NCBI RefSeq assembly: GCF_022397955.1
Contig: NZ_JAKEUQ010000010.1
Coordinates: 855-64,854, forward strand
Length of the DNA stretch: 64,000 nucleotides
Direction: 5' to 3'
DNA from: Vibrio sp. Isolate32
Lineage (GTDB): Bacteria > Pseudomonadota > Gammaproteobacteria > Enterobacterales > Vibrionaceae
The translations under genes were made by a program, and so were the position numbers. Positions within the stretch are counted from its first letter, which is position 1. Each line of letters opens with the position of its first letter. This document shows positions 2,495 to 49,388 of this stretch, in pieces. The notes under the pieces are model-generated. The model made no database searches. It was not told the DNA's origin and saw nothing but the letters and a program-made list of their open reading frames with translations.

Positions 2495-2637
2495 GGTTGA
2501 ATCCTCTTATTAGAGACTTAGGGACTATTGCTATACCTAGGATTAAAAATTGCCAGCCCTAGAAATAGCAATAGTTCCTAGCATAAGCATAGGAACTAAA
2601 GAAGTGCTGCAAGGAACCTTGCAGCACTAAAAAGGTA
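2495..2637 (-). other. Structured rpsG-fusA intercistronic region
   Basis: This 143-bp gap inside the str operon is full of inverted repeats. Just after the rpsG stop lies a perfect 12-bp-arm hairpin with a 2-nt loop (2603-2628, arm AGTGCTGCAAGG). A second small one (TTCCTA/TAGGAA) lies at about 2574-2595. A third, long and imperfect, pairs GGGACTATTGCTAT near 2521 with its near-complement ending near 2580. No strong U-tract follows the 12-bp stem on the minus strand, so full termination is unlikely. Attenuation, RNA processing or mRNA protection that sets ribosomal protein versus EF-G/EF-Tu output is my inference. Confidence 0.6.
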
Positions 2638-3108
2638 TTACCAACGGTAATGTGCGAACGCTTTGTTTGCGTCAGCCATGCGGTGAACGTCTTCACGTTT
2701 CTTAACCGCAGTACCTTTGTTCTCAGACGCGTCTAGCATTTCAGCAGCTAGGCGTTGAGCCATAGATTTTTCACCACGCTTACGCGCAGCTTCAACTACC
2801 CAACGCATAGCAAGAGCGTTACGGCGAACCGGACGAACTTCTACAGGTACTTGGTAAGTTGAACCACCTACACGGCGAGATTTAACTTCTACCGCTGGGC
2901 GAACATTTTCAAGAGCTTCTTCAAATACAGCTAAGTGGTCTTTACCAGACTTCTCAGCCATTGCATCTAGTGCAGTGTAAACAATTTTCTCTGCAGTAGA
3001 TTTCTTTCCGTCAACCATTAGGATGTTAACGAATTTTGCCAGCAGTTCAGATTTGAACTTTGGATCTGGAAGGATCTTACGCTGACCTATTACGCGACGA
3101 CGTGGCAT
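2638..3108 (-). CDS. rpsG: 30S ribosomal protein S7
   Basis: S7 nucleates assembly of the 30S head by binding the 3' domain of 16S rRNA and contacts E-site tRNA. The protein has 156 residues, typical of the family, starting [18 protein letters not shown]. It shows the conserved [16 protein letters not shown] helix region and the [14 protein letters not shown] beta-hairpin. It lies between rpsL (107-bp gap) and fusA (143-bp gap). In E. coli, S7 represses its own operon by binding the rpsL-rpsG intercistronic RNA; the 107-bp gap here (3109-3215) is the corresponding candidate site, but I could not derive a convincing 16S-mimic fold by eye. Confidence 0.98.
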
Positions 3109-3215
3109 GGATATTCTCCGTTGTCTTCTTCAGGTTTTTTCCAAAACTTTTCAGAATAATAAATAAAATAGTGTTTGGCCTTACTTAACGATTTCTTTTT
3201 AAAAAAGAGAATCAA

Positions 3216-3593
<378 letters not shown>

Positions 3594-3671
3594 CTAGCTC
3601 CTGAAATTTACTTGAAAGTAAGCTTTGTGAAAAATCTATCCCTAACTACATGTCGCAATTAGGGACGCAAA

Positions 3672-3700
3672 ATTCTATTCAGCAGTGGGATGTGTGTCAA
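3672..3700 (-). promoter_or_regulatory. Sigma70 promoter of the str operon
   Basis: On the minus strand, TTGACA (complement of 3695-3700) and TAGAAT (complement of 3672-3677) are separated by exactly 17 bp. This is a near-consensus sigma70 promoter about 82 bp upstream of the rpsL start. It sits between the tusB stop (3773) and rpsL, so the ribosomal protein genes can be strongly transcribed independently of the yheO-tus genes upstream. Confidence 0.85.
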
Positions 3701-3772
3701 GAAATATACAGATCTTTTTTAGCCGTCTGGAGCTCAGGATGGTCTAGTTTTGACCAAACCGATAGAGCATAG

Positions 3773-4048
3773 CTACCAAGTGACTGATTTGTCGTTTAAA
3801 ACTGTCAATTCAACAAAGCCATCAAAGCCTACTTGTGTGATGACTTCAGAGGCCAGTTTTTGTAGGCCGCGACTCTTTAGATCGGGTTTTAATACTGACA
3901 CATACTCAACTGCACTGATTTGAGTGAATAACTCATGATTTGGAAGGCAAACATACACTGCATCTTCAACTAACAAGAACTGATCTTGTGGTTGAGAGTA
4001 GATAAGTGCAAGCTTGAGTTTATCCGCTGTTTTAACAATATGAAGCAT
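3773..4048 (-). CDS. tusB: Sulfurtransferase complex subunit TusB
   Basis: Subunit of the TusBCD heterohexamer, which relays persulfide sulfur from TusA to TusE for 2-thiolation of U34 in Lys, Glu and Gln tRNAs. I start it at the internal ATG giving MLHIVKTADKLKLAL (91 residues), because TusB proteins begin with this MLHI(V/I) stretch and the 11 extra upstream codons overlap tusC. It ends in the typical short C-terminus with a terminal Trp. It follows tusC after 8 bp in the order yheO-tusD-tusC-tusB and precedes the str operon promoter. Confidence 0.9.
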   Translation of the reverse strand: MLHIVKTADKLKLALIYSQPQDQFLLVEDAVYVCLPNHELFTQISAVEYVSVLKPDLKSRGLQKLASEVITQVGFDGFVELTVLNDKSVTW

Positions 4049-42494: not shown

Positions 42495-43388
42495 CTAAAC
42501 GACCTTTTCCAACTGAGTGCGAATCGTCTCCGCCAGTTGCTCAAAGCGCCCTTTCAATGGAGAGCCCGGACGGTACGCAACCACAATACGACGTGAAGGC
42601 GTTGGGTTTACCGCAGGCACGTAGCACACACCATCTTTCTGCTTTTCCTTTGGTACCGATAATTGTGGTAGCAAGGTAATCCCCGCGCCTGCCGCCACCA
42701 TGTTACGCAGCGTCTCTAAGCTGGTCGCTTTAAAGCGCTCATCATCTTTTGCACCAGCAGCAAAACAGAACCCTAAAGCTTGGTCCCTTAAACAGTGACC
42801 GTCACCAAGTGCTAAGACTGTCTGTCCATTGAGTTGAAGCATATCTACCGTATCCTGCTGAGCCCACTCATGGTCACATGGAACCGCAACACTTAATGGC
42901 TCGTCATACACATCAATTTCTTTGAACACTGCAGTTTCATCAACCGCAGCCAGCACCAAGCAGTCAAGCTTGCCATCTTCCAATTGACTCACTAATTGGT
43001 GAGTTTGCGCCTCATGCAGGTACAGCTCTAACTCGGGAAAGCTCTCTTTCAGGTGAGGGACAATCTTAGGCAGAATGTAAGGACCCACGGTTGGAATGAA
43101 ACCAATGTGCATTGGTCCGGTCATCGCTTCACCGTGGCCACTCGCCATATCCTTAAAAGTCTTCACTTCGTTGAGAATACGCTTGGCTTGTTCAACAAGT
43201 TGTAACCCTGATTCTGTAAATATGACCTTCCTTGGACTACGCTCGGTTAACTGAAGTCCGATTTCATCTTCTAGTTTGCGTATTTGACCGCTTAGTGTTG
43301 GCTGACTGACAAAGCACGCTTCTGCCGCTTTTCGGAAGTGTTTGTGCTCTGCGAGCGCCACCAAGTATTCAAAGTCACGAATGTTCAT
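42495..43388 (-). CDS. oxyR: Hydrogen peroxide-inducible regulator OxyR
   Basis: LysR-type redox sensor, 297 residues. The winged helix (1-60; FRKAAEACFVSQPTLSGQIRKLE) is followed by the sensor domain. The redox pair is Cys199 and Cys208 in GDGHCLRDQALGFC, at exactly the E. coli positions. Gene is divergent from the Prx-Grx fusion, with a full OxyR operator in the 219-bp gap, so it is likely autorepressed while activating its neighbour. Confidence 0.97.
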   Translation of the reverse strand: MNIRDFEYLVALAEHKHFRKAAEACFVSQPTLSGQIRKLEDEIGLQLTERSPRKVIFTESGLQLVEQAKRILNEVKTFKDMASGHGEAMTGPMHIGFIPTVGPYILPKIVPHLKESFPELELYLHEAQTHQLVSQLEDGKLDCLVLAAVDETAVFKEIDVYDEPLSVAVPCDHEWAQQDTVDMLQLNGQTVLALGDGHCLRDQALGFCFAAGAKDDERFKATSLETLRNMVAAGAGITLLPQLSVPKEKQKDGVCYVPAVNPTPSRRIVVAYRPGSPLKGRFEQLAETIRTQLEKVV

Positions 43389-43459
43389 GATCAGTCTCTT
43401 ACCTCAAGTTTAATAAGAACAAGGGTTTTCATAGCAACATTTTAAAAAAAATTCTCTTG

Positions 43460-43496
43460 ATAGAATTTACCTATCAAAACCATAACATCAAACGAT
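43460..43496. promoter_or_regulatory. Predicted OxyR tetramer operator
   Basis: Four quarter-sites spaced exactly as the E. coli OxyR consensus: ATAG (43460) N7 CTAT (43471) N7 ATAA (43482) N7 CGAT (43493). The first pair is perfect; the second has one mismatch in each element. It lies 71 bp from the oxyR start and 111 bp from the prx start, between divergent genes. Confidence 0.75.
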
Positions 43497-43607
43497 TAGA
43501 TCTATCAAAAAATTTATCTAATAATGGGCTCAACAAAACGAAACAGAGCAGCGAAAAGCGTTAAGCTCTCCTAGAACAAAATTAAAATATCATTTAAGGA
43601 AATCAAT

Positions 43608-44336
43608 ATGTTTGCATCTAAAGAAGGTCAATCAATCCCTCAAGTCACATTCCCAACTCGCCAAGGTGATGCATGGGTTAACGTAACGACTGAAGAGCTA
43701 TTCAAAGACAAAACAGTTATCGTATTCAGCCTACCAGGCGCGTTTACACCAACTTGTTCGTCAAGCCACCTTCCTCGTTACAACGAACTACATTCAGTGT
43801 TCAAAGAGAACGGTGTTGATGACATCCTTTGTGTTTCTGTAAACGATACGTTCGTAATGAACGCATGGAAAGCAGACCAAGAAGCAGAAAACATCACATT
43901 CATCCCAGATGGTAATGGTGATTTCACAGATGGCATGGGTATGTTAGTTGAGAAAAACGACATCGGCTTCGGCAAACGTTCATGGCGCTACAGCATGCTA
44001 GTTAAGAACGGCGTGGTAGAGAAAATGTTCATCGAAGAAGACGTACCAGGCGACCCGTTCAAGGTTTCTGATGCAGATACTATGCTGAACTACATTGCTC
44101 CAGAGCACAAAGAGCAAGAGTCAATTACAGTATTCACTAAGCCAGGCTGTCCTTTCTGTATGAAAGCGAAACAGAACCTAATCGACAAAGGTCTAAACTA
44201 CGAAGAAGTAGTACTAGGTAAAGACGCTACTACTGTAAGCCTACGTGCAATCTCTGGTCGCACAACGGTTCCTCAAGTATTCATCGGTGGTAAGCACATC
44301 GGTGGTAGCGAAGAACTAGAAGCTTTCCTAGGCTAA
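43608..44336 (+). CDS. Peroxiredoxin-glutaredoxin hybrid (Prx5/Grx fusion)
   Basis: Peroxidase of 242 residues that joins an AhpE/Prx5-type peroxiredoxin (1-160; peroxidatic Cys50 in PGAFTPTC) to a C-terminal glutaredoxin (170-242; Cys181-Pro-Phe-Cys184, then [18 protein letters not shown]). The attached Grx lets the enzyme be reduced by glutathione, as described for the Haemophilus hybrid Prx5. It faces oxyR across a predicted OxyR operator, so peroxide induction is expected. Confidence 0.94.
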
Positions 44337-44542
44337 TCACTGCCAAAAGGCTAATCCACTCACTTGTGGGTTGGCTAACCCTATCGGGTTGAATCAAGCT
44401 TGTGGCTCGCATTAACCACAGTCACAAGCTAAACCTAATAAAACAGAACCACAAAACTGACCCGCTATCCTGACTCACTAAAAACATCACATGAGTTGGA
44501 GGGTTCGTTCACACTAAATTTAGCCATTGTGAGAAAATTATT
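44337..44542 (+). other. Prx-Grx to flavoprotein intergenic region
   Basis: 206 bp with an inverted repeat AGCTTGTG (44397-44404)/CACAAGCT (44423-44430) and a GGGTT-AACCC-GGGTT run (44368-44390) that could form two alternative small hairpins. No U-tract follows, so read-through to the flavoprotein gene is possible. Own promoter uncertain. Confidence 0.4.
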
Positions 44543-46009
44543 ATGAAACAAGTCAATGTAGATGTAGCAGTTATCGGGGGCGGTACGGCAGGTCTAGGAT
44601 CTTACCGCGCTGCAAAAGCACACACTGACAGTGTCGTGATGATTGAAGGCGGCCCTTACGGTACAACCTGTGCTCGTGTTGGTTGTATGCCATCTAAACT
44701 GCTTATTGCAGCTGCAGAAAGCGTACACCAAATCGAGAAAGCTCCGGCTTTTGGCGTTCACCCACAAGGTGATATCGTAATTAACGGTCGTGAAGTAATG
44801 GACCGAGTGAAGTTTGAGCGTGACCGTTTTGTTGGTTTTGTTTTAGAGGGCGTAGATGAAATCCCAGAGCAAGATAAGATCTCTGGCTACGCAAAATTCT
44901 TAGACGACAACACACTTCAAGTTGATGACCACACAGTGATCACGGCAAAGCGTATTGTTATCGCAACCGGCTCTCGCCCTGCATACCCAGCGGTGTGGAA
45001 TGAACTTGGCGACCGCCTAATTATTAACGACGACTTATTCAGCTGGGATGATTTACCAGAATCAGTTGCCGTATTTGGACCAGGTGTAATTGGTCTAGAG
45101 CTTGGTCAGTCGCTACATCGCTTAGGTGTTAAGACCAAACTGTTCGGCTTGGGTGGTCAAGTTGGTCCAGTAACTGACCCAGAGATCATGGCTTACGCAG
45201 ATAAAACCTTCAATGAAGAGTTCTACCTAGATGCCGACGTGAAAATCGAAAGCATGAAGCGTATTACCACTGAAGCGGGTGAGCCACGTGTCGAAATCCA
45301 GTTCATCAATAAACAAGGTCAGCTAGAAGCCAATATCGTTGAGTATGTGCTGGCAGCAACAGGTCGTCGCCCTAACACTGACAAACTTGGTCTAGAAAAT
45401 ACCTCTCTTGAGCTTGATGAGCGTGGTGTGCCAGTTGCAGACCACTACACACTGCAAACATCGTTACCATCAATCTTTATTGCGGGCGATGCCAGCAACC
45501 AACTGCCCCTGCTACATGAAGCAGCAGACCAAGCTCGCATTGCCGGCGACAATGCAGGTCGCTTCCCTGAGATTCGTGCAGGCCTACGCCGCTCTAAAAT
45601 CTCAGCGGTTTTCTCTGACCCGCAAATCGCGATGATTGGTGAAACTTACAAAGAGATCACTACTCGCTTAGGCACATGTGGTTGTTTCGCAACGGGTGAA
45701 GTATCTTTCGAGAACCAAGGCCGCTCACGAGTGATGCTACGTAACAAAGGTATTCTGCACGTTTACGGCGAGCAAGGTACAGGTCGCTTCCTTGGTGCTG
45801 AAATGATGGGACCAAATGCAGAACACTTAGCGCACTTGTTAGCATGGGCACACCAAAACAAGATGACGGTTTCTGAAATGCTAGATATGCCGTTCTATCA
45901 CCCAGTAATCGAAGAAGGTGTACGAACTGCACTGCGTGACCTCAACGCGAAACTGCACTTAGGTCCAGAGATGGTGAAACACTGCCTAGACTGTGGTCCA
46001 GGTTGTTAA
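44543..46009 (+). CDS. Dihydrolipoyl-dehydrogenase-like flavoprotein disulfide reductase with C-terminal Cys tail
   Basis: Class I pyridine nucleotide-disulfide oxidoreductase of 488 residues. FAD site VAVIGGGTAGLGSYRAA (8-24), redox-active pair Cys43/Cys48 in GTTCARVGCMPSKLL, NAD(P) domain FGPGVIGLELGQSL, second FAD motif IFIAGDAS, and the His-Glu dyad around FYHPVIEEG (His453). It is annotated in relatives as dihydrolipoyl dehydrogenase, but no E1 or E2 gene is near. Two extra features stand out: a CGC at 379-381 and a C-terminal tail HCLDCGPGC with Cys481, Cys484 and Cys488. A Cys tail recalls mercuric reductase and high-Mr thioredoxin reductase, which pass electrons to an external acceptor. 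Position after the OxyR-linked peroxidase suggests a redox-defence role, but that is inference. Confidence 0.85.
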   Translation: MKQVNVDVAVIGGGTAGLGSYRAAKAHTDSVVMIEGGPYGTTCARVGCMPSKLLIAAAESVHQIEKAPAFGVHPQGDIVINGREVMDRVKFERDRFVGFVLEGVDEIPEQDKISGYAKFLDDNTLQVDDHTVITAKRIVIATGSRPAYPAVWNELGDRLIINDDLFSWDDLPESVAVFGPGVIGLELGQSLHRLGVKTKLFGLGGQVGPVTDPEIMAYADKTFNEEFYLDADVKIESMKRITTEAGEPRVEIQFINKQGQLEANIVEYVLAATGRRPNTDKLGLENTSLELDERGVPVADHYTLQTSLPSIFIAGDASNQLPLLHEAADQARIAGDNAGRFPEIRAGLRRSKISAVFSDPQIAMIGETYKEITTRLGTCGCFATGEVSFENQGRSRVMLRNKGILHVYGEQGTGRFLGAEMMGPNAEHLAHLLAWAHQNKMTVSEMLDMPFYHPVIEEGVRTALRDLNAKLHLGPEMVKHCLDCGPGC

Positions 46010-46064
46010 TCTCGGTGGATTGAGACAGGTAACCATTTGCTCTATTAACATAGATTAGATACTA

Positions 46065-46091
46065 AAAAGGAAAGCCATTGGCTTTCCTTTT
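46065..46091 (+). terminator. Terminator after the flavoprotein gene
   Basis: A 12-bp stem (AAAAGGAAAGCC) with a 3-nt loop is followed by TTGG and then TTTTTT, 56 bp after the stop. Confidence 0.88.
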
Positions 46092-46119
46092 GGTTTTTTG
46101 GCAACGAGCAAATAACAGG

Positions 46120-46226
46120 TTCCCGATGATGCTCCTTCATCGCTTTCGGGAATGACGTTGATTTATTTAAGCAACTAAACCAAAACTTAACCCGTCAATC
46201 CAGAACCGAGGGACGAAGTATCTGGA
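46120..46226. repeat. Possible dispersed palindromic repeat
   Basis: Two stem-loops in a gene-free strip: TTCCCG (46120-46125) with CGGGAA (46147-46152), and TCCAGA (46199-46204) with TCTGGA (46221-46226). The CGGGAATGACG and TCCAGAACCGAGGGACGAAG words recall small palindromic repeats common between Vibrio genes. Copy number cannot be checked here. Confidence 0.35.
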
Positions 46227-46264
46227 ATCTCTTAAACCGTTACTTATCGCTAAATGCGAGAGAA

Positions 46265-46612: not shown

Positions 46613-46698
46613 CGATCTTCTCTCTCTATGTCACCGTGATCCAATATCTTGTGACTGTTATTATCAGGTCAACAAGCATAACGCGAATCAAGCCCAAG

Positions 46699-46947
46699 AT
46701 GACATGTCTTCATTGCAATAAAAATGAAAAAATCTTCAACAAACTCGGTCGTTGCCAACATTGTATGAATCAACTCACGGTATTGTCGATATTGAGTTGG
46801 GGAGTATGGTGGCTGTTTTTCAAGGAAGACCCAAAAACCATCAACGCCATCGCTTTGATGATGGCAGCTTTCGCATTCAGTGGCTTATTGTCGCTGCATT
46901 GGATAATGAAATTTGTGGTGCTGCCTTTGAGAAGCAAAAAGCGTTAG
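46699..46947 (+). CDS. DUF3624 small membrane protein
   Basis: An 82-residue protein starting MTCLHCNKNEKIFNKLGRCQHCMNQL, with two CXXC pairs (a likely zinc knuckle). Two membrane segments follow (VLSILSWGVWWLFF and IALMMAAFAFSGLLSLHWIMKFVVL) and a basic tail. I use the internal ATG at 46699 because the DUF3624 family starts with MTCLHC; the 21 extra codons are unlike it. Function unknown. Confidence 0.78.
   Translation: MTCLHCNKNEKIFNKLGRCQHCMNQLTVLSILSWGVWWLFFKEDPKTINAIALMMAAFAFSGLLSLHWIMKFVVLPLRSKKR

Positions 46948-47166: not shown

Positions 47167-49388
<2,222 letters not shown>

Follow-up and report, generated by a model that had tools for sequence, protein, structure and literature searches.

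The reductase gene and its neighbourhood

In the window (the whole stretch of 64,000 nucleotides that was analysed), a divergent oxyR and a gene for a peroxiredoxin-glutaredoxin fusion (Prx-Grx) lie upstream of a flavoprotein gene whose product ends in a cysteine-containing tail. The features that enter the argument are:

42495-43388, minus strand: oxyR, divergent (NF008361, 540.9 bits)
43460-43474, unstranded: OxyR-like ATAG-N7-CTAT
43608-44336, plus strand: peroxiredoxin-glutaredoxin fusion, upstream of the reductase and its proposed partner (Pfam Redoxin and Glutaredoxin)
44543-46009, plus strand: class I flavin disulfide reductase of the GorB type (488 aa, ATG start; ORF translation, Pfam and NCBIfam)
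44669-44686, plus strand: active site CARVGC (Cys43, Cys48)
45677-45685, plus strand: interface-domain loop, Cys379-x-Cys381, found only within the tail-bearing clade
45899-45916, plus strand: acid-base motif HxxxxE (His453, Glu458)
45965-46006, plus strand: C-terminal tail, residues 475-488, with C-x-[DE]-C-G-P-G (Cys481, Cys484) and a Cys488 that is not general
46065-46091, plus strand: terminator-like hairpin 3' of the reductase

The initial annotation had described a full class I flavin disulfide reductase beside oxyR and a Prx-Grx fusion, with no 2-oxoacid dehydrogenase gene in the vicinity, and this description holds: every residue that it named is in place in the ORF translation, Pfam and NF008361 identify the two upstream genes, and no 2-oxoacid dehydrogenase was seen by eye among the ORF translations between 37.5 and 52.5 kb, five genes being scanned with profiles as well. 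Pfam recognizes Pyr_redox_2 and Pyr_redox_dim in the reductase, whose cysteines stand at positions 43, 48, 379, 381, 481, 484 and 488 and whose C-terminus reads KHCLDCGPGC. The active site is present in all 80 named relatives (i.e., the best 80 of 588 matches from genome contigs), as are His453 and Glu458, and this retention of the HxxxxE motif, a name used in the text of PMC10587081, fits what would be expected of a thiol-disulfide enzyme.

The only exact match to ATAG-N7-CTAT in the 64 kb, which we take to be an OxyR-type motif, sits between oxyR and prx-grx (mean of 0.59 matches in shuffled sequence). A scan of positions 43389-46264 returned a single terminator-like hairpin, a weak signal given the 2.8 expected in shuffles, and none between Prx-Grx and the reductase; since the lone hairpin follows the reductase, a common transcript of the two genes is plausible from the sequence.

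Family assignment and the GorB precedent

Against the NCBIfam equivalog model NF004939, which is named 'dihydrolipoyl dehydrogenase', the protein scores 762.3 bits, well above the cut-off of 435, and so belongs to that family. It does not reach the cut-offs of the models for lipoamide dehydrogenase itself (TIGR01350, 256.4 vs. 408.8 bits), MerA (TIGR02053, 267.5 vs. 454.45 bits), Gor (NF004776, 189.1 vs. 480 bits) or thioredoxin-glutathione reductase (TGR) and high-Mr thioredoxin reductase (TIGR01438, 97 vs. 475.85 bits). The host genome encodes three paralogues at 27-28% identity, namely Lpd, a canonical Gor and SthA, and the true Lpd, with 496.4 bits on TIGR01350, adjoins an E2 gene. Judged by the curated models, the predicted protein is not a lipoamide dehydrogenase, as the initial annotation had suspected. 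Above the cut-off, NF004939 matches were obtained at the level of the genus (60 of 99 genomes), family (76 of 101), order (62 of 295) and class (53 of 274), and in none of 14 control genomes.

One relative of this protein has been characterized biochemically. According to PMC7794356, bp1727-1729 of Bordetella pertussis constitute a copZ-prxgrx-gorB operon; purified GorB oxidises NADPH with GSSG (kcat/Km of 323,000 M-1 s-1), and addition of PrxGrx raises the coupled rate; the operon is under copper/CueR control, OxyR raises its last two genes, and the complete operon is confined to Bordetella and Achromobacter among 86 beta-proteobacterial genera. The same arrangement occurs in Achromobacter aloeverae (L243), where genes for CopZ, Prx-Grx and a member of NF004939 follow one another; this reductase scores 732.4 bits and is 58% identical to that of the window. 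A homologue is present in 55 of 81 genomes of the Achromobacter family, and a CxxC within the last 20 residues occurs in 0 of 30 loci from this family. The family of the window protein thus includes one assayed glutathione reductase, apparently tail-less to judge from the Achromobacter copies.

The parallels between the two systems are that the Achromobacter copy also belongs to NF004939 and is encoded directly downstream of Prx-Grx, and that OxyR, which acts on the Bordetella operon, is encoded by the divergent neighbour in the window. They differ in that the Achromobacter copy has neither the C-terminal CxxC nor the loop cysteines, and in that the Bordetella operon includes copZ and responds to copper. 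At six loci of the Achromobacter family (L262, L268-L272) a copZ-like match accompanies the gorB-like gene and the stretch covered contains no Prx-Grx, which suggests a separate copper link.

Linkage to Prx-Grx and the proposed function

A Prx-Grx-type glutaredoxin domain (TIGR02190 above cut-off) is encoded in all 62 genomes of the order that carry NF004939, as against 68 of the 233 that do not (Fisher p = 2e-27, a value that ignores kinship, the genomes not being phylogenetically independent). The NF004939 gene lies directly behind prx-grx in 51 of 63 cases in the order, with gaps of 63-394 bp, and the window gene is placed likewise. As a control, Gor was found in 62 of 62 carriers and 193 of the 233 others (from a list read by eye), so that a score of 62/62 is by itself not special; what distinguishes Prx-Grx is the contrast with 68/233 together with the adjacency. 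Three genomes of family f173 have 3.0-3.3 kb between the two genes, and in G372 a chemoreceptor gene and one further gene separate them.

Among the named loci (the best 80 of 588), Prx-Grx lies directly upstream in 39. In others the neighbour is of a related kind: a peroxiredoxin before and a lone glutaredoxin after the reductase gene (L166), a lone glutaredoxin upstream (L190, L205, L215), a glutathione S-transferase (GST) upstream (L198, L200, L213) or downstream (L233), or a peroxiredoxin downstream (L203); the assignment is by Pfam for three of these neighbours (the glutaredoxins at L166 and L205, the GST at L213) and by similarity for the others. No peroxiredoxin, glutaredoxin or GST directly adjoins the gene in 32 of these best 80, which include one with a GST-like match at the contig end (L178), two with a GST farther off (L165, L224) and 12 Marinobacter loci with a Dps-like ferritin downstream. 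Ten genes next to deeper members, or to ones without a Prx, proved unrelated or gave no identification.

Two observations on gene copies belong here. Genome G557 has a second copy (L136 and L247), 83% identical to that of the window and with a GST gene upstream, while its other copy lies behind Prx-Grx; the second copy may have been acquired horizontally. At L130 (positions 2506-4020, plus strand) the open frame of a relative behind Prx-Grx retains the loop CxC, whereas the two active-site cysteines and the tail motif are gone; it would represent a natural decayed or repurposed form.

Of 24 named NF004939 carriers, 7 are missing a Gor above the cut-off. These comprise tailed forms (two Neisseria, Roseateles, Lysobacter and Paucibacter) and tail-less ones (Chromobacterium, and Cupriavidus with a Gor match of 417 bits, under the cut-off), so an association of the tail with missing Gor is not seen. 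These absences are to be read with the possible incompleteness of the genomes in mind, the second Neisseria being a MAG; and only the cut-off was used, because at a loose E-value the Gor search matches 13 of the 14 control genomes, 3 of them above the cut-off. Where Gor is missing, the NF004939 enzyme may be the main glutathione reductase, and in the order, with Gor in 62 of 62 carriers, it may be redundant.

The reading that best accounts for these data is that the window encodes a GorB-type glutathione reductase for Prx-Grx, with the tail acting as a thiol relay, and we give this explanation as a whole a probability of roughly 65%. Prx-Grx would reduce peroxide with electrons that enter from GSH through its glutaredoxin domain, and the flavoprotein would turn the resulting GSSG back to GSH. 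Electrons would pass from NAD(P)H via FAD to Cys43/Cys48, with His453 and Glu458 as the acid-base catalyst; the tail, whose two thiols sit in a flexible segment at constant spacing from the catalytic His, would most likely receive them from Cys43/Cys48 of the partner subunit and hand them to a bulkier disulfide. The reductase is probably controlled by OxyR. What the analysis itself shows is the family membership, the linkage in the genome, and a tail that is conserved and evenly spaced. That the enzyme is a GorB-type glutathione reductase serving Prx-Grx is probable, and there is a similarly good chance that the tailed form has kept the GSSG reductase activity of GorB, by analogy with that relative. 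Against the explanation stand the source of this analogy, a homologue without an apparent tail, the 32 of the best 80 of 588 loci that lack an adjoining peroxiredoxin, glutaredoxin or GST, and the possible redundancy with Gor in the order. The initial annotation was on the right track in looking towards Prx-Grx, but named neither GorB as a GSSG reductase nor the glutathione route. Its suggested link to the peroxidase stands as far as gene order and co-occurrence are concerned; it does not extend to a need for the tail, since in Chromobacterium, Cupriavidus and Achromobacter (L223, L230, L243) tail-less forms also lie behind Prx-Grx and the tail is therefore not required for the pairing.

The C-terminal tail and its alternatives

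Among the best 80 of 588 relatives, 68 carry the CxxC tail and 73 have Cys484, five retain a single tail cysteine and seven have none; Cys488 is present in just 19. In the 81-row alignment that includes the window, counting rows with a residue at the position, Cys481 occurs in 69 of 75, Cys484 in 74 of 74, Pro486 in 71 of 74, Gly487 in 74 of 75 and Cys488 in 20 of 74, while at positions 476-480 the top residue reaches at most 36%. Cysteine makes up 0.96% of the first 440 residues of the same rows, and against this background the frequencies of Cys481 and Cys484, in a stretch that appears flexible, are beyond chance. An AlphaFold2 monomer has a mean pLDDT of 91.8 and a value of 46 over residues 481-488, so that the motif would be a conserved element in a flexible end of the protein. 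Cys481 follows His453 by 28 residues in all but one of the 69 CxxC rows, among which is that of the window. Within the family to which the window belongs, every one of the 69 distinct proteins taken from the best-scoring matches has the ending [LM]DCGPGC, down to 80% identity with the window protein; this family is taken to be Vibrionaceae from the 97% match in Vibrio fortis (L180). Conservation of the tail, which the initial annotation had proposed to check by alignment, is thus borne out for Cys481 and Cys484 and fails for Cys488, and the triple-cysteine motif that it described was too specific, the conserved unit being C-x-[DE]-C-G-P-G.

Two trees were built from 112 rows, which comprise the window together with the 80 named and 37 further chosen loci, minus six duplicates or near-duplicates (L016, L020, L197, L208, L222 and L241). 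In the first, calculated by a quick method with the tail and loop columns excluded, a clade of 96 rows contains every row with the tail motif and nine without it. The state of the tail changes six times in the first tree and seven times in the second, and the branches do not separate one loss from several. The loop cysteines change state three times, always inside the tail clade, and L130 is the sole row that has them without a tail. Tree tests of the tail against the loop, and against a Prx-Grx neighbour, had no power in this set.

In raw counts, Glu410 and Gly412 (positions 45770-45778) accompany the tail: Glu410 is found in 77 of 79 CxxC rows, whereas rows without the tail motif have Asp in 16 of 25 and Glu in 4 of 25, and a second count gives 86 of 89 tailed rows vs. 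0 of 7 tail-less named rows. Because just three pairs fall on starred branches (seven on all branches), the sign test for Glu410 cannot reach 0.05, and other columns of the alignment outscore it in the same test; the association is a lead only.

The relay step is proposed by analogy with high-Mr thioredoxin reductase, in which, as described in PMC6155587 and PMC8914392, electrons move from the N-terminal cysteines to a mobile centre at the C-terminus of the opposite subunit. Both high-Mr thioredoxin reductase and TGR are class I reductases with a flexible C-terminal thiol pair, as is the window protein, whose pair is conserved among its relatives; their tail is GCUG rather than CxxC-GPG, and the glutaredoxin of the window system is on another protein. 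In MerA, which has the class I fold in common with the window protein (Z of about 39, as for Lpd), the C-terminal cysteines deliver to the active site of the opposing monomer according to PMC10587081, although by its entry titles Tn501 MerA has adjacent cysteines (Cys558/559) in place of a CxxC. The structure 3ic9, a Colwellia 'dihydrolipoamide dehydrogenase' (602 bits, Z of 48.6), shows no CxxC in its aligned part, which stops 13 residues before the end. A glutathione amide reductase of Chromatium gracile is reportedly paired with a Prx/Grx protein, to go by a title; the glutathione amide reductase 2r9z scores just 117 bits against the window protein. No study of the tailed form was found among openly licensed papers. 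That the tail serves as a mobile redox centre, as it does in high-Mr thioredoxin reductase, is a tentative proposal, which may well prove wrong: the single-cysteine tails (5 of the best 80 of 588) argue against a dithiol relay, which would not tolerate them, and tail-less partners of Prx-Grx argue against a strict one. The conserved tail lets one test whether a C-terminal redox centre of the thioredoxin reductase kind evolved in bacteria on a glutathione reductase.

A different role for the thiol pair would be to reduce the glutaredoxin domain of the separate Prx-Grx (or a lone glutaredoxin or GST) directly, with no need of free GSH. The tail together with HxxxxE, as in high-Mr thioredoxin reductase (PMC6155587, PMC8914392), the glutaredoxin/GST N-terminal fold that the Prx-Grx, lone glutaredoxin, split Prx/Grx and GST neighbours have in common, and the constant spacing from His453 to Cys481 would all suit such a route. 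However, tail-less enzymes also partner Prx-Grx, single-cysteine tails exist, and Bordetella GorB acts via GSSG in the account of PMC7794356, and we regard it as unlikely. The same doubt applies to its broader wording, in which the enzyme would be a two-gene equivalent of thioredoxin-glutathione reductase that arose independently and is found across Proteobacteria under the dihydrolipoyl dehydrogenase label.

If the tail were instead a docking or regulatory element (a binding motif or a redox switch) and carried no electrons, one could understand why the G-P-G is conserved about as well as the cysteines, why single-cysteine forms occur, and why several deep NF004939 members without CxxC (L152, L153, L157 and similar ones) end in another short motif, approximately x-E-L-x-x-L-D. 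Yet the near-invariance of Cys484 and Cys481 exceeds what a docking peptide needs, and this possibility too seems to us a doubtful one.

That the tail and the loop cysteines bind metal, for example Cu(I), Zn or Hg(II), is improbable. Two cysteine pairs are available, gorB-like genes of the Achromobacter family lie near copZ, and copper controls the Bordetella operon (PMC7794356); but the copZ-linked copies are without the CxxC tail, the MerA model is missed, and all of the best 80 of 588 relatives retain HxxxxE, in whose place the mercuric reductase GbsMerA has Tyr-Ser (PMC10587081). A four-cysteine metal site as a general role was rejected because 14 of the 68 CxxC-tailed relatives (best 80 of 588) are without the loop cysteines and because the loop is nested within the tail clade.

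That the protein is, as its public label says, an ordinary E3 lipoamide dehydrogenase is very improbable: the name of NF004939, an Lpd-like fold and the redundancy allowed by the V. cholerae authors cited below would agree with it, but TIGR01350 is missed, the genome has its true Lpd next to an E2 gene, and the phenotype of the V. cholerae mutant differs from that of the glycine cleavage mutants.

NF004939, labelled dihydrolipoyl dehydrogenase, most likely represents a second kind of glutathione reductase, and the label places the family in glycolysis, the TCA cycle and glycine cleavage, as two papers on V. cholerae illustrate. A further study found prxA (VC2637) more than 10-fold up with H2O2, and VC2638 is not named in its main text (PMC5289545). 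In one of the two papers, VC2638 was deleted as the presumed lipoamide dehydrogenase component of glycine cleavage; the mutant was without the fly-virulence defect shown by gcvT, gcvP and gcvH mutants, and redundancy with the lipoamide dehydrogenase VC2412 was suggested as the reason (PMC5473594). We take VC2638 to be the orthologue because its locus number follows those of oxyR1 (VC2636) and prxA (VC2637), and not from an alignment.

Farther downstream in the window, positions 46636-46944 (plus strand) encode a 103-aa DUF3624 protein whose N-terminal half contains cysteine motifs. The 624-aa ORF at 47167-49041 (minus strand) looks by eye like an argininosuccinate lyase with an extra acetyltransferase-like part at the C-terminus, presumably as in Vibrio genomes.
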